A stretch of 37,299 nucleotides of DNA, taken from positions 1 through 37,299 of the IMG/VR virus record IMGVR_UViG_3300020465_000045, one strand, 5' to 3'. This stretch comes from a virus. This document shows positions 823 through 29,657 of this stretch, in pieces. How positions within the stretch are numbered: position 1 is the stretch's first letter; every line of letters starts with the position of its first letter. The notes under the pieces were generated by a model. That model searched no databases and was not told the DNA's origin. It saw only the letters and a program-made list of their open reading frames with translations. A program made the position numbers and the translations under genes.

Positions 823-1122
823 TTAAAGTAATTCAATTAGATCATTATCTAATTTGATCCAACAGTTATGACAGAGGATTTTAGAAGTCTCTATTAGTTT
901 TAGAATATCTTCTCTGCTTTCTGTATTGATACCCGTGATTTTAGATTTTTTACGGATATCTGCATCATGAGGATGAAACTTTAGACATATAGTCTCAGAC
1001 TCACCACATTGTTGACAAGAGGAGGTATCAAGATGTTTATTAACCCAAGAAACTCGTTTAGAGTAGTTTCTTCGAGCAACTTTCTTAATAGTTTCTTTAT
1101 ATTTCTGATAATGTGTCTGCAT
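823..1122 (-). CDS. Small HNH-like / zinc-ribbon protein, possibly a degenerate homing endonuclease
   Basis: This is a 99-residue protein and the only convincing minus-strand gene in the window. Two CxxC pairs (C36/C39 and C84/C87) flank a histidine-rich FHPHD segment (H50, H52). This is the spacing of small phage HNH proteins, in which a zinc ribbon holds the beta-beta-alpha-metal fold. In the usual C-terminal motif (CxNCHxxxH) the histidine after the second CxxC is conserved; here that position is W88 and no second histidine follows. Nuclease activity may therefore be lost, or the protein may only bind DNA. The N-terminal 30 residues are very basic. The gene lies between the terminase and tail sheath genes, where T4 has no gene, and is antisense to both, which fits a mobile insertion. 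A perfect late box is 6 bp from the start codon. Confidence 0.6.
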   Translation of the reverse strand: MQTHYQKYKETIKKVARRNYSKRVSWVNKHLDTSSCQQCGESETICLKFHPHDADIRKKSKITGINTESREDILKLIETSKILCHNCWIKLDNDLIELL

Positions 1123-1127
1123 ATGAA

Positions 1128-1135
1128 TATTTATA
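1128..1135 (-). promoter_or_regulatory. T4-type late promoter, minus strand (TATAAATA)
   Basis: A perfect TATAAATA on the minus strand lies just upstream of the HNH-like gene. With T4 geometry, where the start falls about 6 nt after the box, transcription would begin at or next to the ATG (1122), giving an essentially leaderless mRNA. Confidence 0.5.
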
Positions 1136-1178
1136 TATACTATAGCATATAAAAATAGGATGTAGAAATATATGTTTC

Positions 1179-1186
1179 TATAAATA
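1179..1186 (+). promoter_or_regulatory. T4-type late promoter of the tail sheath gene
   Basis: TATAAATA is a perfect match to the late promoter recognised by gp55-RNA polymerase in T4. It lies about 70 bp before the tail sheath start. The 60-70 nt leader is extremely AT-rich and ends in a good Shine-Dalgarno, AAGGAGAA. Confidence 0.7.
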
Positions 1187-1256
1187 CATGTATAAAAAGA
1201 ATTATTATTCGAATAATATTAAATATTTAATAAGATATTAAATAAGGAGAACAACG

Positions 1257-3257
1257 ATGCCATTTTTAGTTTCGCCTGGTGTACAGGTAAATGAAACCGA
1301 TTTAACGAATGTCGTTCCAGCAGTTGCAACATCTATTGGTGCAATCGCAGGTGCATTCGCAAAAGGCCCTGTTTCCAGCGTGACAACGATAACTTCCGAA
1401 GAAGACTTAGTAAAAACTTTCGGAAAACCAAATGCGAACAATTACGAAAACTGGTTTTGTGCTGCAAACTTCTTGCAATACGGAAACTCTTTAAGAGTTG
1501 TTAGAGCGGAAAGTGCAATCGTTAACGCAGGTGCAAACAGTGGTATATTAATTAGAGACGATGACCATTATTCAACATCGTTCTCAACAGGACAAGGCTC
1601 TCACGGTGAGTGGGCAGCTAGATCAGCAGGAACATGGGGAAATTCAATAGGAGTTTCTATCTGTGCTACTGCAACAGCATTTGAACAAGTATTATCTTCA
1701 GGCAACTTAACAGTTGGCGAAGACGCAGTTGGTGCTACAACAATTGCAGTTGATGACGCAGATTTATCAAACAACGCAATTAATGTTGGTGACATGATTT
1801 CTTTCTTTACAGATAGTGCTGGAACAACACCAGTTACTGGCGAGACAGGAAACGAATACGAAGTAACTGCAATATCAACAGATAATTTAACAATCAGACA
1901 AAAAGATAACCCAAATGGTGGTGGTGTACAAAACATTATACCTGATAACTCATACATCAAAAGAAAGTGGAGATTTCACGACCTTTTCGATAAAGCGCCA
2001 GGAACATCAACATGGGCCACTCAAAATTCAAGAGGTGGTGGAGATGAAATGCATGTAGTAGTTTATGATACTACTGGTGACATTACAGGGTTTGATGACG
2101 GAGTTGCTGGTAACAGAACAAAAGCAGTTATCGAAACTTTTGGATTTATGTCAAAAAACTCAAGTGCTAAAACACCTCAAGGTAATTCAAACTATTACCC
2201 AGATGTTATTTTTTCTCAATCAGCAAACATATATTGGACAGACCATATAAGTGCTGGTTCAAATTGGGGAACAGACACAACTTCAACATACACAGCTGTG
2301 GATGCACCAGTTGTTGATAATTTAACAGGTGGAACAGATGATTACTCTTTAACAAATGGAGAGATATCAATTGCATATAATAAATTTGACGATTCAGAAA
2401 TCAATGATGTTAACTTAATCATTGGTGGATCATCTTCAATTGCAGCTGATACTCAAGCAAACTATGATACACATGGTACTATGTTAATTACTCTTGCAGA
2501 AGCGAGATTAGATGCTATTGCATTTATATCACCTCACAGAGCTGCAACAGTTGGAGTAGCAACTACAGCAACACAAAAAACAAATGTAGTAAATGCAGCT
2601 GCAACATTACCAAGTTCTTCTTATGCAGTTCTTGATAGTGGATACAAATACATGTATGACAAATACGCAGATGTTTACAGATGGGTACCGTTAAACGGTG
2701 ATGTTGCTGGATTATGTGCTAGAAACGATCAGATTGCAGAAGTATTCTTCTCACCCGCTGGATTTAACAGAGGTGTGATGAGAGGTGCAATTAAAGTTTC
2801 CTTTAATCCTAACCAAGCAGAAAGAGACGATCTTTATCAAGCAAGAGTTAACCCAGTAGTTAACTTTCCTGGTCAAGGTGTTACACTATTTGGTGATAAG
2901 ACTGCTTTAACAACCCCTAGTGCGTTTGATAGAATAAATGTTCGAAGATTGTTTATAGTTTTAGAAAAAGCAATCTCAACTGCTTCTAAATTTCAATTAT
3001 TCGAAGTTAATGATGCATTCACTAGAGCAAGATTTAAAAACCTTGTGGAACCATTCCTAAGAGACATTCAAGGTCGAAGAGGAATAGAAGACTTCCAAGT
3101 TGTATGTGACGGAACAAACAATACAGGCGAAGTAGTAAATAGAAACGAGTTTGTTTCTGATATCTATGTTAAACCTAATCGTTCTATTAACTTCATAACA
3201 CTAAACTTTATAGCAACTCGTTCGGGTGTTGCGTTTAGTGAAGTAGGAGGCGTGTAA
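1257..3257 (+). CDS. 18: Tail sheath protein (gp18-like)
   Basis: This 666-residue protein is close in length to T4 gp18 (659). It polymerises around the tail tube and contracts at infection. The N-terminus has the conserved sheath opening (LVSPGVQVNETDLT, then a GAIAGAFAKGP segment). The middle (about 140-400) is a Gly/Thr/Asn-rich, variable, surface-exposed region. The C-terminal 200 residues are the conserved polymerising domain, with the R-N-P-V-V-N-F-P-G-G-type loop near residue 540 and an RGIEDFQVVCDGTNN segment near the end. A strong AAGGAGAA ribosome site precedes the ATG, and a perfect TATAAATA late promoter lies upstream. It is followed after one base by the tube gene, exactly as in T4. 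Confidence 0.96.
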   Translation: MPFLVSPGVQVNETDLTNVVPAVATSIGAIAGAFAKGPVSSVTTITSEEDLVKTFGKPNANNYENWFCAANFLQYGNSLRVVRAESAIVNAGANSGILIRDDDHYSTSFSTGQGSHGEWAARSAGTWGNSIGVSICATATAFEQVLSSGNLTVGEDAVGATTIAVDDADLSNNAINVGDMISFFTDSAGTTPVTGETGNEYEVTAISTDNLTIRQKDNPNGGGVQNIIPDNSYIKRKWRFHDLFDKAPGTSTWATQNSRGGGDEMHVVVYDTTGDITGFDDGVAGNRTKAVIETFGFMSKNSSAKTPQGNSNYYPDVIFSQSANIYWTDHISAGSNWGTDTTSTYTAVDAPVVDNLTGGTDDYSLTNGEISIAYNKFDDSEINDVNLIIGGSSSIAADTQANYDTHGTMLITLAEARLDAIAFISPHRAATVGVATTATQKTNVVNAAATLPSSSYAVLDSGYKYMYDKYADVYRWVPLNGDVAGLCARNDQIAEVFFSPAGFNRGVMRGAIKVSFNPNQAERDDLYQARVNPVVNFPGQGVTLFGDKTALTTPSAFDRINVRRLFIVLEKAISTASKFQLFEVNDAFTRARFKNLVEPFLRDIQGRRGIEDFQVVCDGTNNTGEVVNRNEFVSDIYVKPNRSINFITLNFIATRSGVAFSEVGGV

Positions 3258-3258
3258 G

Positions 3259-3789
3259 ATGGCTAGTATAGATGACTTTAAAGCACAATTGGCAGGTGGC
3301 GGAGCAAGACCCAATCAGTTTAGGGTAACTATCGTACCACCAATTGGTATAGTAACAGGACTAAATGTAGCAAACTCTTCATTCCTATGTAAAGCTTCAA
3401 AACTACCAGGTCAAACACTTGGTGAAATAGAAGTACCTTTTAGAGGTAGAAAAATTTATGTAGCAGGTGATAGGGAGTTCGAAACTTGGAACAGTACATT
3501 TTTAAATGATACAGATTTTAATGTAAGAAACGCAATCGAGCGTTGGATGAATGGCATTAATGATCTAGCAGACAATACAGGTACTATTGCTTCTGGCGAT
3601 TATCAATCAGACTTAACGGTTGAACAATTAGACAGAGATGGTACTACAATTAAATCGTATATATTCAGAAATGCGTATCCGTTGACATTAGCAGACATAG
3701 AGTTAGCTTATGAATCAACTAATACCATTGAAGAGTTTGAGGTGACTTGGAGATATCAACACTTTGAAGCGAGTGGCGTTAACTTCTAA
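3259..3789 (+). CDS. 19: Tail tube protein (gp19-like)
   Basis: At 176 residues it is slightly longer than T4 gp19 (163). It forms the stacked hexameric rings of the inner tail tube through which DNA passes. Family features are the NQFRVTI strand near residue 20, the KASKLPGQTLGEIEVPFRGR stretch near 50-70 and the E-x-W-N-x-T-F-L-N-D loop, followed by a helix with W-M-N-G. The ATG comes 1 nt after the sheath stop. Its ribosome site (AGGAGG) lies inside the sheath's last codons, so the two genes are translated together at high level. A second protein with a related pattern is encoded at 11662-12240. Confidence 0.93.
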   Translation: MASIDDFKAQLAGGGARPNQFRVTIVPPIGIVTGLNVANSSFLCKASKLPGQTLGEIEVPFRGRKIYVAGDREFETWNSTFLNDTDFNVRNAIERWMNGINDLADNTGTIASGDYQSDLTVEQLDRDGTTIKSYIFRNAYPLTLADIELAYESTNTIEEFEVTWRYQHFEASGVNF

Positions 3790-3835
3790 ACACCTACTAA
3801 ATAGTAATATACAAAGTATAAGGTAGGAGTACATT

Positions 3836-5440
3836 ATGGCAGAATTATTCGGATTTAAATTCGAACGAATAAAAGATACACAACCAGAAGACAAATTTGT
3901 CCAAAAGTCGCCTGATGACGGTACAGTCGAAATATCAGGCGGTGGACATTTTGCTCAAGTCTTGGATATCGATGGTAGAGATCGAAATGATCTAGACCTC
4001 ATTCGTAGATATAGAGACATTGCCCAACAACCAGAATGTGATAGTGCGGTAGAGGATATCGTAAACGAAGCAATTGTATCTGACGAAAGAGATAAGTCAG
4101 TAGAAATAGTTTTAGATAGTCTTAAATATAGTGCAAAGATTAAAAACAGCATGAGAGCTGCTTTTGATGATGTATTATCACTATTAGATTTTGATACTAA
4201 AGGACATGACATCTTTAGAAGATGGTATGTTGATGGTAGATTATTTTATCATAAAATAATTAATTCAAAAAACCCTAAACTAGGTATTCAAGAAGTAAGA
4301 TATATTGATCCTAGAAAAATCAGAAAAGTAAAAGCAGTTCAGAAAGTACCTGGCCCACAAGGATCAGTTATTGTTAAAGATGAACAAGACTATTACCTTT
4401 ACAATGAAAAGATGTTAAAGGGTATGATGAATCAAGGTATGAGAATTGCCGATGACGCAATAACTTATGTACCATCTGGTCTGATTGACGCAAACAAAAA
4501 TCAAGTATTATCTTATTTACATAAAGCAATTAAACCTGTTAATCAATTAAGAATGATTGAAGACAGTTTAGTTATTTACAGAATATCAAGAGCACCAGAA
4601 AGAAGAATATTTTATATTGATGTTGGTAACTTACCAAAACTAAAAGCAGAACAATATTTAAAAGATGTTATGAACAGGTATAGAAATAAACTTGTTTATG
4701 ATGCGAAGACAGGTGAGATAAGAGACGATAGAAATCACATGTCAATGTTAGAAGACTTCTGGTTACCTAGAAGAGAAGGTGGAAGAGGAACAGAAATTAC
4801 TACTCTACCAGGCGGATCAAACTTAGGTGAGATAGATGACATTACATACTTCCAAAGAAAACTATACAGAAGTTTGAATGTTCCTATTTCAAGATTAGAA
4901 GCAGAACAATCATTTTCATTAGGAAGATCAACAGAGATTACTAGAGACGAATTGAAGTTTACTAAATTTATTCAAAGAATAAGAAAGAAGTTTATACCTT
5001 TATTCTTAGATATGTTGAAGACACAACTTATCTTAAAAGGTATTATCAATATTGAAGAGTGGTCTCAAATAAAAGAACATATTCAATTTGACTTCTTAAA
5101 AGACGGACACTTTGCTGAGTTAAAAGCGCAAGAGTTATTAAATGAAAGAATTAATATGTTAGGATCAGTAGAAAATTACATTGGTACTTTCTTTAGTAAA
5201 GAGTTTGTTTACAAACAAGTATTGAAAATGAATGATTATGAAATAGCAGAGATACGAAAACAAATTAATAAAGAAGCAGGAGCCGACACCGAAGATGGCG
5301 GAGTGGATGTAGGAAGTAACGATGGTATTACTAGAGTACCTTCATTCGGTGGAGAGCCAATGGTCGACCCTGTTGATCCAAATAAAGAAGTTGACACCGA
5401 TAAACAAGATGGTGCTGACGATGATATAAATAATACATAA
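3836..5440 (+). CDS. 20: Portal protein (gp20-like)
   Basis: This 534-residue protein is close to T4 gp20 (524). It forms the dodecameric portal ring at one head vertex, nucleates prohead assembly and is the docking site for the terminase and the neck. Recognisable stretches include DIVNEAIV near residue 78, FRRWYVDGR near 130, the YRISRAPERRIFYIDVGNLP core near 250 and the LGRSTEITRDE motif near 365, all typical of T4-like portals. The last 50 residues are acidic and Asp/Gly-rich. Ribosome site: TAGGAG, 8 nt before the ATG. A late-promoter box for the next gene lies inside its final codons. Confidence 0.96.
   Translation: MAELFGFKFERIKDTQPEDKFVQKSPDDGTVEISGGGHFAQVLDIDGRDRNDLDLIRRYRDIAQQPECDSAVEDIVNEAIVSDERDKSVEIVLDSLKYSAKIKNSMRAAFDDVLSLLDFDTKGHDIFRRWYVDGRLFYHKIINSKNPKLGIQEVRYIDPRKIRKVKAVQKVPGPQGSVIVKDEQDYYLYNEKMLKGMMNQGMRIADDAITYVPSGLIDANKNQVLSYLHKAIKPVNQLRMIEDSLVIYRISRAPERRIFYIDVGNLPKLKAEQYLKDVMNRYRNKLVYDAKTGEIRDDRNHMSMLEDFWLPRREGGRGTEITTLPGGSNLGEIDDITYFQRKLYRSLNVPISRLEAEQSFSLGRSTEITRDELKFTKFIQRIRKKFIPLFLDMLKTQLILKGIINIEEWSQIKEHIQFDFLKDGHFAELKAQELLNERINMLGSVENYIGTFFSKEFVYKQVLKMNDYEIAEIRKQINKEAGADTEDGGVDVGSNDGITRVPSFGGEPMVDPVDPNKEVDTDKQDGADDDINNT
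5425..5432 (+). promoter_or_regulatory. T4-type late promoter inside the end of the portal gene
   Basis: A perfect TATAAATA overlaps the portal's last codons (Asp-Asp-Ile-Asn) and lies 23 bp before the prohead core gene. This is a sensible position for a late promoter driving the prohead core, protease and downstream genes. Confidence 0.6.
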
Positions 5441-5454
5441 GATAGGAGAATATT

Positions 5455-5664
5455 ATGCCAGATAAAATAGTAGATGCAATAGCAAAGGGATCAACTCTTG
5501 ATGCTGAAGATGCATTCAAAGGTGCTATGAAAGCGAAGATTGCTGACGCAATCGAGACTAAAAAAATGGAAGTTGCAAAAGGATTAGTTAATAATCATAT
5601 AGATGCAACTCCAGCGAAAGACGAAACGCCTGCAGAAGCACCAGCAGAAACATCGAAAGAGTAG
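5455..5664 (+). CDS. 67: Prohead core protein (gp67-like)
   Basis: At 69 residues it matches T4 gp67 (80) in size, place (right after the portal) and sequence style. An N-terminal amphipathic helix reads DAIAKGSTLDAEDAFKGAMK, then K-I-A-D-A-I-E-x-K-K-M-E-V-A-K, and the tail is acidic and Ala/Pro/Glu-rich. In T4, gp67 is part of the internal core that determines head shape and is cut by the gp21 protease. The start is supported by TAGGAGAA 6 nt upstream and by the late box in the portal's last codons. The call is good although the protein is short. Confidence 0.8.
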   Translation: MPDKIVDAIAKGSTLDAEDAFKGAMKAKIADAIETKKMEVAKGLVNNHIDATPAKDETPAEAPAETSKE

Positions 5665-5670
5665 TTTAAG

Positions 5671-5919
5671 ATGAAATGGAATGACCTGTATTCATCAATC
5701 TTTGAGAAAGATGAGCATAAGAAATCTAGAGAATATAGGAAACAATCGCCAAAAATGAAGAAAGCGATTGATGATTTATTCAAAAAAATGGATTCTAAGG
5801 GGTCAAATTTCCTAAATAACTTTGAGAAGACAATAACAGATGTTGCTAAGAAACATAGAGTACCCGAAAAGAAACTCTATGATTACTTTGAAAAAGAAGC
5901 AACGCAGTTTATGAATTAA
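5671..5919 (+). CDS. Small basic helical protein in the gp68 position
   Basis: This 82-residue, highly charged (Lys/Glu/Asp-rich) and probably all-helical protein starts 7 nt after the gp67-like stop. It occupies the place of T4 gp68, another prohead core component, but it is much shorter than T4 gp68 (141) and I see no certain sequence match. The N-terminal MKWNDLYSSIFEKDEH opening recalls small marine T4-like head-module proteins. The C-terminal half carries a conserved-looking KKHRVPEKKLYDYF helix. A weak ribosome site lies in the preceding stop region. A role in the prohead core is inferred from position only. Confidence 0.6.
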   Translation: MKWNDLYSSIFEKDEHKKSREYRKQSPKMKKAIDDLFKKMDSKGSNFLNNFEKTITDVAKKHRVPEKKLYDYFEKEATQFMN

Positions 5920-5928
5920 GGAAGAACA

Positions 5929-6312
5929 ATGGCAGTAGTACTACAAACACTAAAAGATTCAGATTTCGAACATGTTGTAAAAGTTACAACAACAGGCACT
6001 AATTCAGCGGCTTCAATTGTTGACGCTTCTGCATTAGCAGGTGCAGATACAAATCCAAGACTATCAATTGTATCTTGTACATGGTCAACAAGTTCACAAA
6101 CAGACATTTTATTTGACGCAACTTCAGATGTTGTTGCATTATCACTAAACGGAACTGGTAGTATTAACGGAGGTGGTCAACATGTTCCGTCTATTGCTAA
6201 CAATGCAGGTTCAGGTGTAACAGGCGATATTCAATTAACCAATTCATCAGCCTCAGTAGGAACAATAATTTTACATTGCAGAAAGGTATCGGGTTACGAT
6301 AACATTCAATAA
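5929..6312 (+). CDS. Beta-rich structural protein, candidate head decoration protein
   Basis: This 127-residue protein is dominated by Ser, Thr, Gly, Ala, Val and Asn, with short alternating hydrophobic strands. It has no long helices, few charged residues, no signal peptide and only two Cys. That composition suits a beta-sandwich virion protein. It has no counterpart in the T4 20-67-68-21 order and sits between the prohead core genes and the protease, where T4-like phages place head components. Its stop overlaps the protease start (TAATG), so it is translated with it. A decoration or head-fibre role is inference. I do not recognise a named family. Ribosome site AAGGAAGA precedes the ATG. Confidence 0.6.
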   Translation: MAVVLQTLKDSDFEHVVKVTTTGTNSAASIVDASALAGADTNPRLSIVSCTWSTSSQTDILFDATSDVVALSLNGTGSINGGGQHVPSIANNAGSGVTGDIQLTNSSASVGTIILHCRKVSGYDNIQ

Positions 6313-6971
6313 TGCAAACAGTTAAACTAATTACAGAAGGTAACGATTTCGATTCATCTAATTTCTTAATAGAAGAAAAAAACGGAAAAAAAGATTACAA
6401 GATTAGAGGAATCTTTATGCAGTCTAACATTAAGAACAGAAATGGTAGAGTGTATCCAAGAGAAGTTTTGGTGAAAGAAGTTAAATCTTATAACAAAGAA
6501 TTTATAAACAAAAATAGAGCGTTCGGTGAACTAGGACACCCAGATGGTCCAACAGTTAACCTTGATAGAGTATCACATATGATTACATCTTTAAAACAAG
6601 ATGGTGATAACTTTATAGGTGAAGCTAAAATTATGGACACACCAATGGGTAAGATTGTAAAAAATCTTATGGACGAAGGTGCAACTCTTGGAGTTTCATC
6701 TAGAGGAATGGGATCATTAGATTCTAGAGGCGCTGCAAATTATGTAAGATCAGATTTTAAATTAGCAACAGCAGGTGATATAGTATCAGACCCATCTGCT
6801 CCAAGTGCTTTCGTTGAAGGTATTATGGAAGGCAAAGAGTGGGTTTGGGATCATGGAAGTTTAATTGAAGCACATGTTGCAGAAGCAAAAGCAAGAATAG
6901 AAGCGAAAGCAAAAGCGAGAAAAAGTATTGAAGCTAGTTTAGAGTTTGCTAAGTTTTTAAAACAGTTATAA
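6312..6971 (+). CDS. 21: Prohead protease (gp21-like)
   Basis: This 219-residue protein is the serine protease of T4-like proheads (T4 gp21, 212 residues). It cleaves the scaffold and the capsid protein during head maturation. Visible family motifs are NIKNRNGRVYP near residues 39-49, the catalytic histidine in FGELGHP (H76), NLDRVSH near 83-89, and the catalytic serine in LGVSSRGMGS (S129/S130). The Ala/Lys/Glu-rich C-terminus is probably removed by self-cleavage. A matching cleavage site (Leu-Gly-Glu) is seen in the capsid protein at residue 52. The start codon overlaps the previous stop. Confidence 0.93.
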   Translation: MQTVKLITEGNDFDSSNFLIEEKNGKKDYKIRGIFMQSNIKNRNGRVYPREVLVKEVKSYNKEFINKNRAFGELGHPDGPTVNLDRVSHMITSLKQDGDNFIGEAKIMDTPMGKIVKNLMDEGATLGVSSRGMGSLDSRGAANYVRSDFKLATAGDIVSDPSAPSAFVEGIMEGKEWVWDHGSLIEAHVAEAKARIEAKAKARKSIEASLEFAKFLKQL

Positions 6972-6982
6972 TAGGAGAAATT

Positions 6983-7918
6983 ATGAGTATTAAAGTAAAT
7001 TGGTTGATTGCACACAAACCTGTAAATCTGTTCATTAGAACAGCTAAAGCGTTTCAAGAAGCAATCAAAGATGCAACAAAAGGAAAATACGAAATCGTAA
7101 TTCACGAAAAAGAAAGTGAAGAACATTTTGAAGCTGAAACAGGTAAGTTACCTGTAACTGCGTTATCGTGCAATGACTATCAAATGTCACAAACCGAAGT
7201 TTATAAAATCGGTCAAATGCATGATGGTGTAAAAGATTTTCTAGCATTAGATTTACCATTCTTATTTGAATCACACGATCATTGTTCAAAAGCAATGGAA
7301 GGTGATCTAGGTGATGAATTAAATTTTAAATTATCTCATCATCTAAATGTACAAGGATTAGCATACACATATTCAGGTGGATACAGAAACTTTGGGTCTA
7401 ATACTAAAATTTCAAATTTGGCTGATCTACAAAACTCTAATAAAATTAAAGTTGGTGGAAACCCTGTTTGCCAAGATTACATCAAAGAACTTGGTGTAGA
7501 AACTTCAAGACAAGTTATTCAATCAAATACAGAATGGTTGGAAATGTCAGACTTGGAAGCAGAGTCAGTTGAAAATACTTACACTAGATTTCCCGAAGCT
7601 AAATATTGGTTGAACACAAACCATAACATGTTTATTACAGACATCATGGTATCAAATGATTTCTGGTCAACTTTGTCAGATGAAGATCAAGAAATCTTTA
7701 GAAAGACAGCTATTAAAGTTGCAAGACTAGAAAGAAAATGGTCTGAGGAAGATCATGAAAACTATGAGTTAGAAGCAAAGAAACATGGTAAGACTATTAC
7801 AAGAATTAGTGAAGAAGACAAAATGAAGATGAAAGAAAAAGCAATTCCTATATATGAAAAATGGGAAAAGATATTTTCAGATTCATTGATTTCTAAAGTT
7901 AAGTCATACGCAGCTTAG
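6983..7918 (+). CDS. TRAP/DctP-like solute-binding protein without signal peptide
   Basis: This 311-residue protein resembles the periplasmic substrate-binding subunit of TRAP transporters (DctP/SiaP family). Seen: an N-terminal strand-helix that starts directly at the mature-domain position (IKVNWLIAHKP, then a helix TAKAFQEAIKDATKG); DLPFLFESHDHC near residue 90; an AYTYSGGYRNFGS strand near 127; the KVGGNPVCQDYIKELG hinge near 155; a VENTYTRF loop; and HNMFITDIMVSNDFWSTLSD near 215. There is no hydrophobic leader, so it should stay in the cytoplasm or enter virions. The carboxylate-binding Arg usually found in the R-V-P-G-like segment reads Lys here, so the ligand may differ. No membrane subunits are nearby. 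It lies between the protease and scaffold genes and has a strong AGGAGAAATT ribosome site. Function unknown. Confidence 0.75.
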   Translation: MSIKVNWLIAHKPVNLFIRTAKAFQEAIKDATKGKYEIVIHEKESEEHFEAETGKLPVTALSCNDYQMSQTEVYKIGQMHDGVKDFLALDLPFLFESHDHCSKAMEGDLGDELNFKLSHHLNVQGLAYTYSGGYRNFGSNTKISNLADLQNSNKIKVGGNPVCQDYIKELGVETSRQVIQSNTEWLEMSDLEAESVENTYTRFPEAKYWLNTNHNMFITDIMVSNDFWSTLSDEDQEIFRKTAIKVARLERKWSEEDHENYELEAKKHGKTITRISEEDKMKMKEKAIPIYEKWEKIFSDSLISKVKSYAA

Positions 7919-7924
7919 AAATCT

Positions 7925-7932
7925 TATAAATA
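7925..7932 (+). promoter_or_regulatory. T4-type late promoter
   Basis: A perfect TATAAATA lies 13 bp before the ATG at 7946, in the gap after the solute-binding-protein gene. The expected start site leaves a leader of only about 8 nt, AAGGTATATT, with a minimal AAGG ribosome site. Confidence 0.6.
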
Positions 7933-7945
7933 AATAAGGTATATT

Positions 7946-8584
7946 ATGTATAGTTGGTTTAACGAGTTGACTCGTATTCAAAAACCAAATCGTGAGAAAA
8001 AGGATTATTATCATTATGATCTTTACGAAGTGGAAATATTAAATAGTTTATTTCGTAATCATAATGTTAAGAGCGTGTTGAGTTTAGGTGGAATGAGTAA
8101 CTTAGATTTCTTCCTAGCACAATACGATAATGATGTCAAGACTGCAACGAACATTGATGAAGCAGAAACTTGGCGGCCTTCAAAAGGAGGTCATGGATTT
8201 AATCTTGAAGACAAACAACAAGAGTATATCCAAAGATTTAAATATAATGGGGAATACATCTTTACGAAACAAAGTATAGAACGGTATGATGTTGTTGATA
8301 GAAAGTATGATGTTGTCTTTTGTAATATAGACACACTTAAAGGGAAGATGAAGGTTTTGCCAGATATCTTTATCAAAATGTGGTCTTTTATGGGATTAGT
8401 TGACACTACAAGAGAAAGAATGACAACGGAATACGAAGAAGATTTTAGTAATGTGTTGGTAACAACGAACATGACTGTATTCTCTAATAAGAAGTTAGAT
8501 TATGAAGTCGATATCGTTCCAACCTCCACAAAACTAAGTGACAATAGAATTTTTGTTTATAAGGCGGAAGAATTACGGGTGTAA
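7946..8584 (+). CDS. Unknown protein, possible degenerate methyltransferase fold
   Basis: This 212-residue protein has no firm family. Around residue 40 a strand-turn reads VKSVLSLGGMSNLDFF. It resembles motif I of class I SAM-dependent methyltransferases but lacks the G-x-G-x-G pattern. A second strand, YDVVFCNI, near residue 130 resembles motif IV, and a helix plus two further strands follow. An SAM-binding role is therefore only suggested. It lies between the solute-binding-protein homologue and the scaffold, where T4 has nothing, and has its own perfect late promoter, so it is likely made late. It may be a head-module accessory protein or a modifier of host or virion components. Base composition is like its neighbours. 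Confidence 0.6.
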   Translation: MYSWFNELTRIQKPNREKKDYYHYDLYEVEILNSLFRNHNVKSVLSLGGMSNLDFFLAQYDNDVKTATNIDEAETWRPSKGGHGFNLEDKQQEYIQRFKYNGEYIFTKQSIERYDVVDRKYDVVFCNIDTLKGKMKVLPDIFIKMWSFMGLVDTTRERMTTEYEEDFSNVLVTTNMTVFSNKKLDYEVDIVPTSTKLSDNRIFVYKAEELRV

Positions 8585-8656: not shown

Positions 8657-10036
8657 ATGGCTAATGAATTAGACAAAACCATTGAGGAATTAGAAGCGGA
8701 AGTTTTGGCAGAATTAGAAGAAGCCAATGGTGCTGATGCTCCTAAGAGAGGCGCAATGAAAGCCGAACCAATGGATAAAGCTGATGTTGACGGCGCTAAG
8801 GGTGGAGACGAAGTTCAAGACACAGGTAAACCTGTAGTTGACGGAGAACAATCGGATGCACCTGTTAAGAAAGTCGTAGCTAAAGCTAAAGAAATTGCTG
8901 GTGATCCTGCTCAGAAAAAAGAAGGCAAACCAGACGCAACTCCTAAACTTAAAGAAGAAGAAGATAAAGATGACGAGAAATCTTTAGACACTAAATCTGA
9001 AGGTGATAAAGAAGTTGCAAAAGAAGAACAAAAAGAAGAAGTCGTTGACATTGAAGAAATGCAAGGTCAAATGATGAAGGCAATGAAGTCTATGAAAAAA
9101 GATGAAATGTCTGAGTTATATGCTTCTTACATGAAGGCTTCTATGAATAAGACTAAAGACGAAATGTTCAAAGAAATGCAAGATGGCATGAAAAAAATGA
9201 ATGCTGGAAAAATGCAAGAAATGATGAGCAAAGTGTCTAAGAACTCTGAAGCAAAAGAAGCTGAAGCATCTGCAAAAACTGAGGAAAGATTAAAATCAGT
9301 TGATGTTAAAGAACATGTTGATGCTCTTTTATCAAACGACTCAAATCTTTCAGAAGATTTCAAAAACAAAGCAGCTACAATTTTCGAAACTGCTGTTAAA
9401 TCTAAAATCAGAACTGAGATCGAAAGACTAGAAGGCGAATATGCTGACGAGTTAATTGAAGCTCAAACTGAAAACAGAAAATCGATAACTGAAAAAGTTG
9501 ATAACTATTTAAACTATGTTGTCGAAGAGTGGATGAAAGAAAACGAACTTGCTCTTGAAAGAGGACTAAAGGGTGAGATCGCTGAAGATTTTATAGGTGG
9601 TCTAAAAACATTGTTTGAAGATCATTATATCGATGTGCCTAACGACAAGTACAATGTACTTGAAGCACAGGCAGACAAAATCTCTACACTAGAAAAGAAA
9701 TTAGAAGAAACTATTCAACAAGTTGTTGAACAGAAAAAATCTAACTCTGATCTAATTAAAGAGAAGGTTATGTCAGAGGTCACTTCTGATCTAACTGAAA
9801 CAGAAATTGAGAAGTTCCAAACTTTGGCTCAGGATGTTGAGTACTCAAACGAAGCTGGTTATACTGAAAAGTTAAACACAGTTAAAGAGTCTTACTTCCC
9901 TAGACAAAAAGTTGAAACTTCAAGCGTTAATGATGAAGTAGAAACTGGCACCGCTGTACAGGACATTACAGAGGGTTCCCCTATGGATAGATATACAAAG
10001 GCCATAGGAAAAACTGCTGTAACACACGGCAATTAA
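8657..10036 (+). CDS. 22: Prohead core scaffold protein (gp22-like)
   Basis: At 459 residues it is much longer than T4 gp22 (269). The place (protease, scaffold, capsid) and build (highly charged, Lys/Glu-rich, coiled-coil) identify it as the main scaffold on which gp23 assembles before gp21 digests it. Layout: acidic, low-complexity residues 1-130; a striking methionine-rich helix at 135-194 with about 15 Met in 60 residues; then a gp22-like region from about 200 (VKEHVDALLSNDSNLSEDFK, then EAQTENRKSITEKVDNYLNYVVEEW). A C-terminal coiled coil (330-380) precedes a tail ending in MDRYTKAIGKTAVTHGN. There are two perfect late promoters upstream. The extra N-terminal length is the main difference from T4. 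Confidence 0.88.
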   Translation: MANELDKTIEELEAEVLAELEEANGADAPKRGAMKAEPMDKADVDGAKGGDEVQDTGKPVVDGEQSDAPVKKVVAKAKEIAGDPAQKKEGKPDATPKLKEEEDKDDEKSLDTKSEGDKEVAKEEQKEEVVDIEEMQGQMMKAMKSMKKDEMSELYASYMKASMNKTKDEMFKEMQDGMKKMNAGKMQEMMSKVSKNSEAKEAEASAKTEERLKSVDVKEHVDALLSNDSNLSEDFKNKAATIFETAVKSKIRTEIERLEGEYADELIEAQTENRKSITEKVDNYLNYVVEEWMKENELALERGLKGEIAEDFIGGLKTLFEDHYIDVPNDKYNVLEAQADKISTLEKKLEETIQQVVEQKKSNSDLIKEKVMSEVTSDLTETEIEKFQTLAQDVEYSNEAGYTEKLNTVKESYFPRQKVETSSVNDEVETGTAVQDITEGSPMDRYTKAIGKTAVTHGN

Positions 10037-12531: not shown

Positions 12532-12960
12532 ATGACTTTAGACGAATTAAAACAAATCGTATATAAAGAACTACCTGTAAACAAAGATCATTTAGATACA
12601 GAAGCTTTACGGAATCAAGAACTATACGCAAAATTTTTAGACTACAAAACCAATTTCGCTTTCTTACTTGCGAAAGCGAAAGGGGAATACAAAGTACTTT
12701 ACCGACAGAAATGGGAATACTATGGTGGAAAGGCTGATGCCAAAATATATGCTACCAAACCATTTGATTTAAAAGTACTTAAAACAGACCTTTCAGTTTA
12801 CATCGAATCCGATGAAGACATTATCAAATCCGAAAATAAAATAGTTTATCTAGATGAAACTTGTAAGTACATTGATGGTGCTTTAAAGTCTATTCAAGCT
12901 AGAGGGTGGGATATTAAGAATTGTTTGGAGGCTCAAAAATTTGAAGCAGGATTACAGTAA
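12532..12960 (+). CDS. uvsY: UvsY recombination mediator
   Basis: At 142 residues (T4 UvsY: 137) it is the mediator that loads UvsX recombinase onto gp32-coated single-stranded DNA. The pattern matches T4 UvsY along the length: an N-terminal LDELKQIVYKEL helix, a central YRQKWEYYGGKAD (T4: ALKARLDYYSGRGD), VLKTDLSVYIESDEDIIK (T4: MKTVLSADKDVLK), and a C-terminal CKYIDGALKSIQARGWDIKN ending FEAGLQ. It directly follows an early promoter with almost no leader. It overlaps the next start by 1 nt (TAATG). It is separated from its usual partner UvsW by one extra gene. Confidence 0.92.
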   Translation: MTLDELKQIVYKELPVNKDHLDTEALRNQELYAKFLDYKTNFAFLLAKAKGEYKVLYRQKWEYYGGKADAKIYATKPFDLKVLKTDLSVYIESDEDIIKSENKIVYLDETCKYIDGALKSIQARGWDIKNCLEAQKFEAGLQ

Positions 12961-13463
12961 TGCGACAAGATTTTTGGTTTACCAATATAAAACAAATGCG
13001 AAACGAAGAGTATTCGTTTCTAGAAGATTTTATTTCCAATAAAACTCAAGGTAATATATTAGAGATAGGTCAAGGTGGGTCTACGGTTATTATCTTAGAT
13101 GCAACAGCAGATACAGATAGAAAACTTACATCAATAGATTTAAAAGATAAATTAAAAGATGTTGTAAAATATCTTCCAAAAGATTATGTCGAAAGATTTA
13201 ATCATATTAAAGAAGACTCCCATAAAGTATCATTAAAAGAAAAGTTTGGTGTTATTCTTATTGATGGTGAACATTACGGAAACTCTATAAGAAAAGACAC
13301 AATGAATTTTTGGAATAATCTTGAAGATAATGGTTATTGTATTTTTCATGACTATAATTTATTTAATGATGTAACAAAGTTTGTTGATGATTGGGTAAAC
13401 AAATTTGACCAGGCAGAAATATATAAACAAAATCATAATTTGATTGTTGTAAAAAAGCGTTAA
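12960..13463 (+). CDS. Class I SAM-dependent methyltransferase-like protein
   Basis: This 167-residue protein has a clear SAM-binding motif I (NILEIGQGGSTVIIL, near residues 34-48). Motif II follows in the KLTSIDLKDKL strand (acidic residue near 61). VILIDGEHYGNSIRKD at about 98-113 looks like the Methyltransf_24 type (strand 4 with D-G-x-H-x-Y), and a GYCIFHDY strand comes near 127. Substrate unknown; this family acts on small molecules or sugars as often as on macromolecules. No DNA-methyltransferase signature (DPPY or PCQ) is present. It is inserted between uvsY and uvsW, coupled at both ends (1-nt overlap; 3-nt gap). Confidence 0.7.
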   Translation: MRQDFWFTNIKQMRNEEYSFLEDFISNKTQGNILEIGQGGSTVIILDATADTDRKLTSIDLKDKLKDVVKYLPKDYVERFNHIKEDSHKVSLKEKFGVILIDGEHYGNSIRKDTMNFWNNLEDNGYCIFHDYNLFNDVTKFVDDWVNKFDQAEIYKQNHNLIVVKKR

Positions 13464-16072: not shown

Positions 16073-17130
16073 AAGTAGCAATTATAACAGATACACACTT
16101 TGGTGCTAGAAATGATAATGATAACTTCTCAGAATATTTTTATAATTTCTATGAGGGAATATTCTTTCCTTATTTACAACAACATGGTATAACAACAGTT
16201 TTACATTTAGGCGATCTTATGGATCGTAGAAAATATGTTTCATATAAAACTGCTAAAGAGTTTAGAGAAAGATTTATATTACCATTAAAACATTTAAAAA
16301 TAGACTTTCATTGTTTAGTAGGTAATCATGATATCTATTTTAAAAATACAAATGATGTAAACTCATTACAAGAATTAATAGGTGAATCAAATAAGAAGTT
16401 TCATTTATATGCAGATGCAACAGAAGTTAATATAGGTGGACTAGACATTTTGTTTATGCCATGGATTAATCAACAAAATTATATTTATTCTATGGGTATG
16501 ATTGATGAAACTAAAGCACAAATTTGTATGGGGCATTTAGAGATTAAAGGTTTCCAAATGCATAAAGGACAGATAAACGAACAAGGATATGAAAAAGAAT
16601 TATTTAAAAAGTTTCATACAGTATTCACAGGTCACTTCCACCACAAATCAGATGACGGACATATCTATTATCTAGGTAATCCTTATGAGATTTATTGGAA
16701 TGATTATAATGACAAAAAAGGATTCCATATATTTGATACAGAATCTTTAGAATTAAAAAGAATAGTTAATCCATTAAGGATACATGAAAAAATTTATTAT
16801 GATGATTCGCAAGAAGATTATGACAAACATGATGTATCACAATATCAAAGAAAATATGTTAAAGTTATTGTTGTAAATAAAAAAGACTTATACAAATTTG
16901 ATATGTTCATGGAACGATTATTAAAAGCAAATGCACATGAAGTTAAGATTATAGAAGACTTTTCAGATACAAATGCTGACAATGTGTCAGATGATATTGT
17001 TAAGTATGCTGAAGATACTACAACATTATTAGACAAATACATTGATGAATTAGAAATTGATTTAGATAAAGATAGACTTAAAAGTACTATGCGAGGATTA
17101 TATAATGAAGCTCAAGACTTGGAACTCTAA
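16069..17130 (+). CDS. 47: Recombination nuclease subunit (gp47-like, Mre11/SbcD family)
   Basis: At 353 residues (T4 gp47: 339) it is the nuclease half of the gp46/gp47 complex that resects DNA ends for recombination and degrades host DNA. All metallophosphoesterase motifs are present: DTHFGARND (residues 8-16), HLGDLMDRR near 46, LVGNHDIY near 83, GHLEIKG near 160 and TGHFHHKS near 188. The C-terminal 100 residues form the helical cap/gp46-binding part. It overlaps the gp55 stop by 4 nt and the MT-A70 gene by 26 nt, so these genes are co-translated. It is separated from gp46 by two accessory genes. Confidence 0.94.
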   Translation: MKVAIITDTHFGARNDNDNFSEYFYNFYEGIFFPYLQQHGITTVLHLGDLMDRRKYVSYKTAKEFRERFILPLKHLKIDFHCLVGNHDIYFKNTNDVNSLQELIGESNKKFHLYADATEVNIGGLDILFMPWINQQNYIYSMGMIDETKAQICMGHLEIKGFQMHKGQINEQGYEKELFKKFHTVFTGHFHHKSDDGHIYYLGNPYEIYWNDYNDKKGFHIFDTESLELKRIVNPLRIHEKIYYDDSQEDYDKHDVSQYQRKYVKVIVVNKKDLYKFDMFMERLLKANAHEVKIIEDFSDTNADNVSDDIVKYAEDTTTLLDKYIDELEIDLDKDRLKSTMRGLYNEAQDLEL

Positions 17131-17644
17131 GTATAAAGTAATATACGCAGACCCGCCATGGGCTTTCAAGACCTATTCAGATAAAGGAAAAGATAGAAGT
17201 CCTGAGCAACATTATGATTGTATGAATATGAAAGACATATGTAATTTACCTGTTGAAAAATTAGCAGACAAAGATTGTGTTTTATTAATGTGGATGATTG
17301 ATAGTATGATGCCACAGGCATTAGAAGTTATTAAGTCATGGGGTTTTGATTACAAGACAGTTGGATTCACATGGGCGAAAACAAATAAAAACAAATTAGG
17401 ATTTTTTACAGGTCTAGGTTATTGGACTAGATGTAATCCTGAGCAATGTTTGTTAGCAACAAAAGGCAAACCACAAAGAATTTCAAAATCAATCCCACAA
17501 TTAGTTGTAGATAAACGACAAGAACATAGTCGTAAACCAGAGATCATTTATTCTCATATAGAAAATTTATTAGAAGGTCCATATGTAGAATTATTTGCTA
17601 GAAGAGAACGAGCAGGTTGGGATAGTTGGGGTAATGAATTATGA
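17105..17644 (+). CDS. MT-A70 family adenine methyltransferase
   Basis: This 179-residue protein of the MT-A70 family makes N6-methyladenine, in phages usually in DNA. The catalytic motif DPPW (residues 16-19) follows the short VIYAD strand. Then come a C-VLLMWM strand near 60, GFDYKTVGFTWAKT near 79-92, GYWTRCNPEQCLLATKG near 102-118 (the family's G-x-x-x-R-x-x-x-E region), and HSRKPEIIY near 140, where SAM ribose contacts lie. It has no target-recognition domain, as usual for the family. It is embedded between the gp47 and gp46 genes, with a 26-nt overlap on the left and 4 nt on the right. Self-protection or regulation of phage DNA is likely but unproven. Confidence 0.9.
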   Translation: MKLKTWNSKYKVIYADPPWAFKTYSDKGKDRSPEQHYDCMNMKDICNLPVEKLADKDCVLLMWMIDSMMPQALEVIKSWGFDYKTVGFTWAKTNKNKLGFFTGLGYWTRCNPEQCLLATKGKPQRISKSIPQLVVDKRQEHSRKPEIIYSHIENLLEGPYVELFARRERAGWDSWGNEL

Positions 17645-19814: not shown

Positions 19815-19954
19815 TGAAAAGAAAATTTAAAATGTTTATGTTATACTTTAGATTTTACTTAAATAGATTTAAATCAATCTTTGTATTTAAAAAAGAAGAA
19901 GAAGAGCCTGTTAGATTTATCTATGAAGATTACAGAGACGATGATGATAAATGA
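19814..19954 (+). CDS. Very small basic/acidic protein (46 residues)
   Basis: This 46-codon frame begins at the TAATG junction with the gp46 stop and ends 11-14 nt inside the next gene. The predicted protein has a basic, aromatic N-terminal half (MKRKFKMFMLYFRFYLNRFK), which could be an amphipathic or membrane-associated helix. The C-terminus is strongly acidic (EEEE, then EDYRDDDDK). Without it, this would be the only sizeable gap in a tightly coupled operon. The junction style and charge segregation make it a believable gene. No family recognised. Confidence 0.5.
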   Translation: MKRKFKMFMLYFRFYLNRFKSIFVFKKEEEEPVRFIYEDYRDDDDK

Positions 19955-20615
19955 TAAATTTTTTTCATTATCTAAAACTGTTGATATAGCAATTACAAAT
20001 AGATGTAATGCTAGATGCCCACAATGTCATAGAACAGATTCAAATGGTTTAGGTGATGTTGATTGGTTGCCAATAATATCTTGGTCGTTAGACGACTTTA
20101 TTAAAATGTTTCCTAGAGAAACTTTAGACGATATAGAGGAATATAGTTTTTGTGGAACTTGGGGCGATCCTATGATGGCTAAAGATATAGAAAAAATATG
20201 TCATTATATTATTGACAATTCAAAAGCAAAAGTATTAATTACTACAAATGGTAGTATTAGAAACGAAGAGTTTTATTGGAACTTAGGTATTAGATGTGGA
20301 ACTAGACTTTCTATTGTATTTGATATTGATGGTATTACAGAAGAAATGCATCAAAAATATAGAAGAGGTGCATCATTAAAAAAAGTATTAAATAATATGA
20401 ATACACTATCTCAAACACCAGCAACAGTATTATCTCAATCTATTATTTTTAAACATAATCAAGATTACAAAAAAGAAATATCAAAACTTGCAAAAGATAA
20501 TGGATCAGAAAATCATGAGTTTTGTAATTCTAATAGATTTTATTTTGGTGGAACTAAATTTAATTTTATTAATGAACAAGGACAAGAAGAATATTTAGAA
20601 AAGGCAGATGACTAA
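19941..20615 (+). CDS. Radical SAM protein (catalytic domain only)
   Basis: The cluster motif C22-x3-C26-x2-C29 (in NRCNARCPQC) follows a DIAITN strand and binds the 4Fe-4S cluster that cleaves SAM. FCGTWGDPMMA near 68 is the 'GGEP'-like SAM-contact segment, and VLITTNGS near 97 and SIVFDIDGI near 120 are further barrel strands. The ATG at 19941 (or 19944) is chosen because longer in-frame starts give a lysine-rich extension overlapping the preceding small gene. At 224 residues it lacks the C-terminal auxiliary-cluster domain, which is encoded separately and immediately downstream in another frame. Substrate unknown: SPASM-type partners often act on peptides, sugars or alcohols. It is the first enzyme of the accessory cluster. 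Confidence 0.82.
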   Translation: MMINDKFFSLSKTVDIAITNRCNARCPQCHRTDSNGLGDVDWLPIISWSLDDFIKMFPRETLDDIEEYSFCGTWGDPMMAKDIEKICHYIIDNSKAKVLITTNGSIRNEEFYWNLGIRCGTRLSIVFDIDGITEEMHQKYRRGASLKKVLNNMNTLSQTPATVLSQSIIFKHNQDYKKEISKLAKDNGSENHEFCNSNRFYFGGTKFNFINEQGQEEYLEKADD

Positions 20616-20922
20616 AATTGTATGTAAATTTATGAACGGTACAACTTCGACAGTAGTAAACCCAGATGGTCAAGTTTGGCCTTGTTGTTATTTGTGTAAT
20701 CAACATTATGAAGTAGAAGGTAACCCTTTAGCAAAACAAGAGAATGACCATGATGTATTAAAAGATTATCAAAAGAATAAAGACAAATATAATTTAAAGA
20801 ATGATACATTAAAAAATATATTAAACAAGGATTGGTTTACAAAAGATTTACCTAATAGTTTTAAAGACCCAAATAAAGCACCAGATGAGTGTCAACATAT
20901 ATGTAAGGAAGAAAATGATTAG
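20608..20922 (+). CDS. SPASM-like auxiliary Fe-S domain encoded as a separate gene
   Basis: This 104-residue protein resembles the C-terminal SPASM/twitch domain that normally follows a radical SAM barrel in one chain. It has C6 in IVCKF, a GTTSTVVNPDGQVWPCCYLC segment (C26, C27, C30), and C95/C99 in ECQHIC at the end. Seven or so cysteines in this order fit one or two auxiliary 4Fe-4S clusters. The ATG overlaps the radical SAM stop by 8 nt in the +1 frame. This could be a natural two-subunit enzyme, a programmed or real frameshift, or an assembly error that splits one gene. No strong ribosome site is visible, so coupling to the upstream gene is likely. Confidence 0.7.
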   Translation: MTKIVCKFMNGTTSTVVNPDGQVWPCCYLCNQHYEVEGNPLAKQENDHDVLKDYQKNKDKYNLKNDTLKNILNKDWFTKDLPNSFKDPNKAPDECQHICKEEND

Positions 20923-22249
20923 TGTAGGAATATCAGAAGGTTTTCATGATGCTTCAATGACAGTAATTAAAGATCAAGAAATACTTTATGCAGGTCATAG
21001 TGAAAGATACTCTCAAACAAAAAATGATAGATGGGTACATGACGATCAATGGAATAATGTTGATTGGTATGACAATCTTGCTTTCTATGAAAACTATTTT
21101 TGGAAGAATACTAGAAATTTTTGGAGTTTACAACCTAAAGTAAAATATAAAAGAGAATACACACATATATTCAGACACCATGAAACACATGCGGCCGCAG
21201 GTTATTATACATCACCTTTTAATGAATGTAATGTTATTGTAATTGATTCAATAGGTGAGTGGGATACAATATCAATATGGGAATGTAAAGATAATGAAAT
21301 GAAAAAAATTAAATCATGGAAGTATCCATATTCACTAGGATTGTTTTATTCAGCAATTACAGAAAGAATAGGATTTAAACCTAATGAAGAAGAATATATT
21401 ACAATGGGTATGGCTGCATACGGAGAGCCAAAACATGATTTAGAAGATATGTTATATAGAAATAATCATAGAGGCGTACATGGATTATTACCACATGCAC
21501 ACCCTTTTGATCTGGCTGCGTCAGCACAAAATTTATATGAAACAAAACTATTAGAGTTATTAAGATATTGTGAATACAGTAATCTTGTTCTTATGGGTGG
21601 ATGTGCTTTGAATTGTGTAGCAAATAGTAAGATACCAGATAGATTTAATATTTGGATCATGCCAAATCCTGGCGATGCTGGATCAAGTTTAGGTGCAGTT
21701 GCATTAATAGAAAAGAAAAAATTAAATTGGAAACACCCATATCTAGGTGAGGAAATAAAACAAGAAGTAAATCCAAAAGAGGTTGTATATCATATATTGC
21801 AACATGGATATTGTGGAGTTGCAAATGGTAAAGCAGAGTTTGGCCCAAGAGCATTAGGCAATAGATCATTACTTGCTGATCCTAGATTAGATATTAAAGA
21901 TACTGTTAATGAAATAAAACAGAGAGAAAAATTTAGACCTTTCGCACCAACAATACTTGAAGAATATGCTGACGAATATTTTGAAGGTCGTAAGAATAGA
22001 TATATGCAATTTACATCAAGGGCAATGCATGATTATAAATCGGTTACACATGTTGACGGAACTGCAAGAGTACAAACAGTTGAAATAGGTTGTGTCTCTA
22101 TACTTAGAGATATACTAGAAGAATTTTATAATCAAACAGGTTGTCCTATGTTATTAAATACAAGTTTAAATATAAAAGGTAAACCAATGGTTAATACATG
22201 GGAAGATGCTTTAGAATTTGAAAGGAAATATAATGTCAAAGTTTTCTAG
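20915..22249 (+). CDS. Carbamoyltransferase (NodU/CmcH/TobZ family)
   Basis: This 444-residue enzyme transfers a carbamoyl group from carbamoyl phosphate via carbamoyl-AMP to a hydroxyl. The N-terminal ASKHA/Kae1-like fold begins with SVGISEGFHDASMTVI and an ILYAGHSERYSQ strand. The metal-binding HHETHAAAGYY motif is near residue 88, IDSIGEWDT near 109 and MGGCALNC near 228. The C-terminal carbamoyltransferase domain shows CGVANGKAEFGPRALGNRS near 300, FRPFAPTIL near 342 and LLNTSLNIKGKP near 412. It is shorter than bacterial relatives (about 550). The ATG at 20915 has AAGGAAGA in front and overlaps the SPASM-like stop; a longer in-frame start lacks this. Possible targets: modified bases, glycans or a small molecule. 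Confidence 0.92.
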   Translation: MISVGISEGFHDASMTVIKDQEILYAGHSERYSQTKNDRWVHDDQWNNVDWYDNLAFYENYFWKNTRNFWSLQPKVKYKREYTHIFRHHETHAAAGYYTSPFNECNVIVIDSIGEWDTISIWECKDNEMKKIKSWKYPYSLGLFYSAITERIGFKPNEEEYITMGMAAYGEPKHDLEDMLYRNNHRGVHGLLPHAHPFDLAASAQNLYETKLLELLRYCEYSNLVLMGGCALNCVANSKIPDRFNIWIMPNPGDAGSSLGAVALIEKKKLNWKHPYLGEEIKQEVNPKEVVYHILQHGYCGVANGKAEFGPRALGNRSLLADPRLDIKDTVNEIKQREKFRPFAPTILEEYADEYFEGRKNRYMQFTSRAMHDYKSVTHVDGTARVQTVEIGCVSILRDILEEFYNQTGCPMLLNTSLNIKGKPMVNTWEDALEFERKYNVKVF

Positions 22250-22844
22250 ACTATATGCGTTTGGTTGTAGTTTTACAAATTACAATAACAAACAATTATG
22301 TTGGCCTGAATACTTAGGAAAGAAATTAGATTTAGAAGTTGTAAATTGGGGATGGTCTGGTTATTCAAACAATTCTATTTTTTTGAAAACAGTTGAAACT
22401 ATGTTTGGTAAAACAGTTGAAGGCATACAAAGAAAAGATGCAAATGGTTTAGTTGTTATTGGATTGACAGATATGGCAAGACAAAAATTATTTCAAGCAG
22501 ATATAACAGGTCATGATCCAAATCCAATAAAACATATGAATAGATATCTTTCAGATATAATTATGATGCAATCATTTTTAGAAAAACATAATGTAGAGTA
22601 TAGAATGTTTAGTGCATTAGCACCATCACCACAACAAGAGAATTATTATCAAAATTATTTTTTAAAAACTATTCAAAATAATATAGATTACGAAAAAATT
22701 ATTGGATGGCCATTTTTTAAAGAGTTAGGTGGATATAGTATGTGGCATTATCTACAAGAAGATAAAAGTAGGATGACAAAAGATTTTCATCCAACAGAAA
22801 AAGCACATAAAGAATGGGCGGAGTATTTGTATAATGAAATATAA
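22233..22844 (+). CDS. SGNH-hydrolase-like protein (GCSF type), first copy
   Basis: This 203-residue protein has the SGNH/GDSL layout. Block I is G-C-S-F near residue 10 (serine nucleophile), N-W-G-W-S-G-Y-S-N near 40 is block II, LVVIGLTD near 75 stands in for block III, and a C-terminal DFHPTEKAH supplies the Asp-x-His of block V. These proteins are esterases or acyltransferases on glycans and lipids, and a GCSF form is frequent in marine T4-like phages. The ATG at 22233 is preceded by AAAGGAAA and lies inside the carbamoyltransferase's last codons, so the genes are coupled. A second relative is encoded at 24607-25467. Confidence 0.72.
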   Translation: MSKFSRLYAFGCSFTNYNNKQLCWPEYLGKKLDLEVVNWGWSGYSNNSIFLKTVETMFGKTVEGIQRKDANGLVVIGLTDMARQKLFQADITGHDPNPIKHMNRYLSDIIMMQSFLEKHNVEYRMFSALAPSPQQENYYQNYFLKTIQNNIDYEKIIGWPFFKELGGYSMWHYLQEDKSRMTKDFHPTEKAHKEWAEYLYNEI

Positions 22845-29207: not shown

Positions 29208-29657
29208 ATGACCAGACTAAGCATATTTCAACAATTACAACCATTCTCAATAGGATTCGATGACATGTTTAATCGATTCGATTCTTTCTTTGATTCAGAT
29301 ATGAGAATGATTAATCAAACAAACTATCCACCATATAATATCGTGAAGACAGGTAAGAACAAGTACGACATAGAAGTTGCACTTGCAGGGTTTTCTAAAA
29401 AAGATATTAAAGTGGAAGTTGAATCAGGCAAGTTAACTATCGAGTCTGTTACAAAAGACAAATCTGATAATATAAAATCAGATGAAGATAATGATATCTT
29501 GCATAAAGGAATTTCAAAGAGATCGTTTAAAAGGGTTTGGACTATATCAGAAGATGTAAAAGTCTCTGGTGCAGAACTCAAAGATGGTCTATTGAAAGTG
29601 TCAATGGAAAAGATTGTACCAGAAAAAGATAAACTGAGAACTATTTCCATTAAATAA
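29208..29657 (+). CDS. Small heat-shock protein Hsp20 (IbpA-like)
   Basis: This 149-residue small chaperone has an alpha-crystallin domain from about residue 42 to 135. It shows PPYNIVKTGKNKYDIEVALAGF, DIKVEVESGKLTIE, GISKRSFKRVWTI, and the hallmark A-x-L-K-D-G-L-L-K-V (the A-x-x-x-n-G-x-L box). The Asp/Phe-rich N-terminus resembles the polymerising arm of IbpA. It prevents aggregation of unfolded proteins and is common in marine T4-like phages. AAGGAGG precedes the ATG; the long leader and composite promoter suggest expression both early and late. A 13-bp hairpin that also holds the next promoter follows the stop. Confidence 0.92.
   Translation: MTRLSIFQQLQPFSIGFDDMFNRFDSFFDSDMRMINQTNYPPYNIVKTGKNKYDIEVALAGFSKKDIKVEVESGKLTIESVTKDKSDNIKSDEDNDILHKGISKRSFKRVWTISEDVKVSGAELKDGLLKVSMEKIVPEKDKLRTISIK

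Follow-up and report, generated by a model that had tools for sequence, protein, structure and literature searches.

DctP-fold proteins without export signals form a phage-specific clade and may serve as intracellular metabolic cargo

We have found that a gene in the head region of a marine T4-like phage encodes a DctP-type solute-binding protein without an export signal, and sequence comparison assigns it to a large, phage-specific clade of signal-less DctPs. Solute-binding proteins are normally exported, and those of the DctP type serve bacteria in capturing organic acids. The clade is new; the DctP fold and family were known before, as were two named UniProt fragments from phages. The reading that we favor, with slightly less than even confidence, is that the protein is a cytoplasmic, carboxylate-binding member of a phage metabolic cargo module and not a head protein. 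Of the rival explanations we rank an enzyme highest, followed by a sponge or sensor, then a virion protein and lastly a receptor exported in an unusual way.

The gene occupies positions 6983-7918 (plus strand) of the window, which is the whole 37,299-nucleotide stretch of viral DNA that was analysed, and encodes 311 amino acids (the coordinates include the stop codon). It begins 11 bp after the gp21 prohead protease gene (6312-6971, plus strand; PF03420, E = 1.5e-33), and the gp22 scaffold gene (8657-10036, plus strand; PF25623, E = 1.9e-63) flanks it on the right. The gp20 portal and gp23 capsid genes were found by Pfam scan to flank this block in turn, in agreement with an earlier note on this DNA that had described head-gene surroundings and a strong ribosome site; the latter, an AGGAG-bearing region just 5' of the ATG (6974-6982, plus strand), was read from the sequence. 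The same note had placed the gene between protease and scaffold, which is correct for the flanks but leaves out a second extra gene of the interval (7946-8584, plus strand; 212 amino acids). This gene appears Rossmann- or methyltransferase-like by eye, and its product had no match in Pfam, PHROG or phage records. The label 'pelagiphage' is not established, the nearest isolates by portal protein being Methylophilales phage Melnitz (70%) and then Pelagibacter phage Mosig (60%).

In sequence and in fold, the window protein is a full-length DctP (type II TRAP binding protein). It matched PF03480 with E = 1.3e-34 and 120 bits, against a cut-off of 23.4 bits, residues 19-296 aligning to positions 13-285 of the 286-position profile. 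Its sequence matches in the PDB were TRAP DctP chains (best 4p47, 6e-19). A structure model built from only 7 close relatives had a pLDDT of 48; repeated with 50 relatives, the prediction reached a mean pLDDT of 94.6 and a pTM of 0.91. All 50 matches listed by Foldseek were TRAP binding proteins, as were the best structural matches in the PDB (Z about 31-33), and comparison with 7bbr using VIA-align 2 gave a Z of 32.9 and an rmsd of 2.5 over 294 residues. The earlier note had recognized a TRAP-type solute-binding protein and proposed comparing a predicted structure with DctP and SiaP, an unlike fold being taken to count against it; the fold that was found is the TRAP fold. The protein nonetheless lacks three features of a TRAP P subunit, namely the signal peptide, the partner genes and the selectivity arginine, and for this reason we do not class it as a component of a TRAP transporter. 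It may still resemble a P subunit in one limited respect, by closing around an organic acid.

A signal peptide is ruled out by the reading frame, which continues for 10 more codons 5' of the ATG and then meets a stop codon. The first strand begins at residue 3 in the structure model, and close relatives (98, 83, 72, 63 and 61% identity) have a start position identical to that of the window protein, which bears out the mature-domain start without export signal described previously. Across the family, the tryptophan of the first strand lay 4-8 residues from the start codon in all 89 ORFs measured, and a further set agreed. Assessed by hydropathy and position rather than with a trained predictor, the N-terminal hydrophobic segments scored 1.9-3.3 on the Kyte-Doolittle scale in 11 bacterial-type DctPs (10 from plasmids and one from a gut contig, L036), compared to 1.1-1.5 in the phage family. 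Wherever a control was annotated or its operon could be read, DctQ and DctM adjoined the DctP. On the contigs that carry the phage DctPs, intact TctC-type receptors have clear signal peptides. Since both these receptors and the DctP controls possess leaders, the absence of a leader is specific to the phage DctP clade and is not a property of phage genomes generally.

These observations bear on whether the protein could be an ordinary periplasmic receptor that is exported by an unusual route and feeds TRAP membrane parts of the host. Its DctP fold is complete and its pocket resembles that of a receptor, and one phage (L096) does encode TRAP membrane parts; a PP-loop ATPase, DctQ, DctM, a signal-bearing DctP and a signal-less DctP lie there in a row (838-5951), on a contig that carries a T4-type neck protein. 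The L096 transporter, however, has that separate, signal-bearing DctP of its own, and no examined member of the clade has a signal peptide even though TctC receptors nearby have them. Among 32 records of relatives, TctC was found in 16, TctA in 3 and DctM in only 1. We consider export the least probable of the explanations. The earlier note would have been contradicted by relatives bearing signal peptides together with membrane subunits, which did not appear. Its statement that DctQ and DctM genes are not nearby also holds, as none was present among the window ORFs scanned with Pfam; DctM was likewise absent from a 51 kb record of a relative.

Searches of viral contigs (IMG/VR) returned 141, and later 466, stretches encoding DctP relatives. 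In a maximum-likelihood tree, 50 phage proteins were split from 11 bacterial-type DctPs by a long branch (support 96/90), and the best plasmid DctP matches were ~31% identical. Two scans of bacteria and archaea (84,980 species), made with short exact patterns tuned to the close subfamily, found no relative; the wider clade may still have cellular members. Among 50,697 phage records there were only weak matches (20-30% identity), mostly on Salmonella scaffolds and on fecal or assembly contigs without annotation. The tblastn matches in the phage collection were rejected as prior members of the clade; the inspected case, L036, turned out to carry a bacterial TRAP operon, in which the DctP is a lipoprotein and is accompanied by DctQ and DctM. 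UniProt/BFVD holds two DctP/TeaA-named fragments from uncultured Caudovirales phages, A0A6J7WI33 and A0A6J7WKL0. Like the window protein they are phage-borne, and they are 27-32% identical to it over about half of the protein; they differ in being ~160-aa fragments with an automatic name, for which we found no description of location or function. Because these two were already named, phage DctP genes are not unseen, yet they are undescribed as far as our searches went. No description of signal-less phage DctPs was found in the literature, a weak absence given that open papers only were covered, and many literature matches to 'DctP' are probably the nucleotide dCTP. Within the clade, two tandem, diverged signal-less copies occur side by side in L065 (4926-6842) and L087 (3963-5873). 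DctP is split over two open frames in G021 (139033-139828; record of L164) and G024 (38045-38804; record of L173), possibly as decayed genes or through sequencing errors.

Residence between head genes invites the reading, put forward in the earlier note, that this is a head or virion protein carrying a ligand. The gene does share its orientation with gp21 and gp22 on either side, and structural genes often surround its relatives. The comparison of the 21-22 interval that the note had suggested nevertheless argues against a head-module protein, as Melnitz, Mosig and S-CREM1 have no gene between 21 and 22. Relatives are found at unrelated places. Those with 83% identity (L006-L009) are near baseplate genes, named by eye; a gp41-like helicase adjoins the 72% relative (L010); Asp/Asn hydroxylase-like and methyltransferase-like genes adjoin the 61-63% relatives (L020, L021), in metabolic stretches; and others lie among tail-fibre or prohead-like genes. 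Synonymous divergence between the window and L002 was 0.03 for DctP, unlike the 0.60 of gp21, 0.36 of the next gene and 0.42 of gp23. Positions 6972-8250 (plus strand) form a recombination island that is near-identical to relatives within diverged flanks, ending at ~8250 against L003 and at ~8000 against L005. These edges, and the divergence of 0.03 against 0.42-0.60 in the head genes, show the DctP gene being exchanged independently, as mobile cargo would be. T4-type head proteins have a conserved place and a history shared with the other head genes, neither of which was found for the DctP gene. With the interval empty in related phages, relatives placed elsewhere and recombination independent of the head genes, a role in head assembly or in the virion is improbable.

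The 212-aa gene at 7946-8584 is in the exchange island together with DctP. The Asp/Asn hydroxylase-like and methyltransferase-like pair is kept with DctP in two diverged phages in differing arrangements (L010 6962-8181; L020 4878-6119; L021 1129-2367). A Gram-negative porin gene (L010 8287-9303, minus strand; PF00267, E = 3e-8) lies close to the DctP cassette on a phage contig.

The placement of late-promoter motifs suggests that the DctP gene is expressed late. A match to the T4-type late promoter motif TATAAATA, by consensus only, lies 3' of the gene (7925-7932, plus strand). Motifs of the TATAAATA type are no more numerous in the window than expected by chance; 6 of the 8 plus-strand copies are directly upstream of genes, in a genome whose spacers are A+T-richer. 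The gene would then be mobile metabolic cargo among late genes, likely with late expression itself.

The ligand pocket was examined by family comparison. In SiaP, Arg147 selects carboxylates; it is found in 96.8% of DctPs, and high-affinity binding is lost on its replacement by Lys (PMC4646407). The window protein has Lys156 at this place (codon 7448-7450, plus strand), a change that, by analogy with SiaP, we count against its being a carboxylate binder. Lys is shared with L006, and 48 of 50 relatives, including L010 and L020, have Arg at position 156; the K-V-G-G that the earlier note read in place of an R-V-P-G-like site is thus true of the window and not of the family. Glu197 and His214 are invariant in 50 of 50 phage proteins and common to bacterial DctPs. 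Trp7, His11, His100, Tyr130-Ser131-Gly132 and Arg202 are also invariant in the 50 phage proteins and mostly different in bacteria. The dN/dS of the window DctP against L006 is 0.10. Together, the conserved Arg, the invariant residues and this ratio point to one particular ligand or reaction for the entire phage clade, and the invariant residues in common suggest that the ligand would be the same acid in all members, or a similar one.

A conserved pocket could also belong to a binding protein turned enzyme, one that acts catalytically on a carboxylate within the cytoplasm. Across the 50 phage proteins, diverse as they are, six residues (His11, Tyr130, Ser131, Glu197, Arg202 and His214) never vary; several of the six are not shared by bacterial DctPs, and the neighbors of DctP are enzymes. 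Glu197, His214 and Arg156, however, are conserved in ordinary bacterial DctPs too, and we know of no enzyme in the DctP family. Other lineages of solute-binding proteins have become enzymes, cyclohexadienyl dehydratase being an example (PMC7683729). We judge catalysis unlikely, while placing it first among the rivals.

The company that the gene keeps is largely metabolic. A protein with a PP-loop motif lies within two genes of DctP in 52 of 79 loci, many of which are near-duplicates. Across 17 records, chosen as representatives, PP-loop genes were nearer to DctP than expected by chance (Fisher, 5e-4). Since this linkage was first noticed in loci already in hand, hold-out records were picked by DctP alone; they repeated the PP-loop linkage (combined p of 8e-4) and showed linkage of TctC receptors to DctP (p of 6e-3). 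Other neighbors of DctP include radical SAM, ATP-grasp-like, BKACE and 2OG oxygenase genes. Similarity of the PP-loop proteins to solved structures (LarE, nitrile synthetase and GMP synthase) is confined to the region of the ATP motif. Known relatives of these proteins activate carboxyl or carbonyl groups. PP-loop genes are not beside DctP in G002, G004, G006, G018 and G019, nor beside the window gene, and this counts against a hand-on of the ligand to such enzymes. The PP-loop gene of the window (36058-36876) has a GGGADS motif and a weak QueC match (E = 0.006) and adjoins a DNA polymerase gene. TctC-like receptors occur at L038 3962-4852 and at 15 other loci, often near signal-less DctP. Genes that are IscU-like, IscA-like and glutaredoxin-like by eye are found near the DctP and PP-loop pair on the phage contigs L041 and L047.

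Neighbors of this kind also bear on a role as sponge or sensor, akin to the decoy and sensor ideas of the earlier note, in which the protein would capture a signalling or defence molecule of the host, or sense a metabolite, during infection. Sequestration would be a fitting task for a cytoplasmic binder that has a single domain and a closed cleft, and the gene moves between phages like accessory genes. Its neighbors, as far as identified, are nevertheless metabolic enzymes and organic-acid receptors, not recognized counter-defence genes, and the protein has no output domain; this role seems to us somewhat less likely still than catalysis.

Under the favored reading of a cytoplasmic carboxylate binder, the DctP-fold protein would be made without an export signal, as its sequence indicates, and would stay in the cytoplasm of the infected cell. 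Its venus-flytrap pocket, to judge from its conservation, would bind one small organic acid. Linkage to receptors, transporters and ATP-using enzymes suggests that this acid may be buffered, withheld or handed on for use by enzymes of the phage, PP-loop ATPases or ATP-grasp ligases for example. Of the reuse in cytoplasm or virion proposed in the earlier note, the cytoplasmic part has gained from the clade-wide loss of the signal and the conserved pocket, and the head part has been lost. It is also conceivable, if doubtful, that the aquatic phage DctP clade stays cytoplasmic as a catalyst, or as an intracellular partner in a pathway of organic-acid uptake and activation that leads from a TRAP or TTT receptor through cytoplasmic DctP to a PP-loop or ATP-grasp enzyme. 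To our knowledge, an intracellular small-acid relay of this kind has no cellular counterpart.

The window contains other cargo-like genes. An island at 19881-25467 encodes radical SAM, SPASM, carbamoyltransferase and 2OG-Fe(II) oxygenase proteins as well as, by eye, amidinotransferase-like and SGNH-like ones, and represents tailoring-type chemistry in a T4-like phage. A Methyltransf_24 gene (12960-13463) is inserted between UvsY and UvsW, and MT-A70 (17105-17644) and Hsp20 (29208-29657) genes are also present.

Compared to known DctP-type TRAP binding proteins (PF03480; 4p47, IseP 8t9t, DctPAm 7bbr and SiaP 3b50), the phage proteins share the whole-length fold, the core motifs and, in most members, the Arg. 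They differ in that the window protein has neither a signal peptide nor a DctQ/DctM partner in the window, and in that the phage family has its own invariants and forms a separate clade, with at most ~31% identity to the DctPs found on plasmids. In one survey (PMC9602780), about 1% of automatically retrieved proteins were cytosolic ones that match profiles of solute-binding proteins. They likewise place a binding-protein fold inside the cell, but are cellular and heterogeneous, and the passages concerned mention no phage or DctP clade. TctA has been reported on a SUP05 phage contig (PMC4164917), which is similar in being an organic-acid transport gene on viral contigs; it is a membrane subunit with a domain hit only, and no binding protein is described in the passage concerned.

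If our reading is true, a large virus clade that lacks the signal and retains the pocket would show plainly that a transport protein had been given a new, intracellular task, and one could then test which organic acid is required or eliminated by aquatic phages in infection. Annotation gives genes of this kind the name 'TRAP transporter receptor' and places them among uptake genes, which is probably wrong for both their location and their function.
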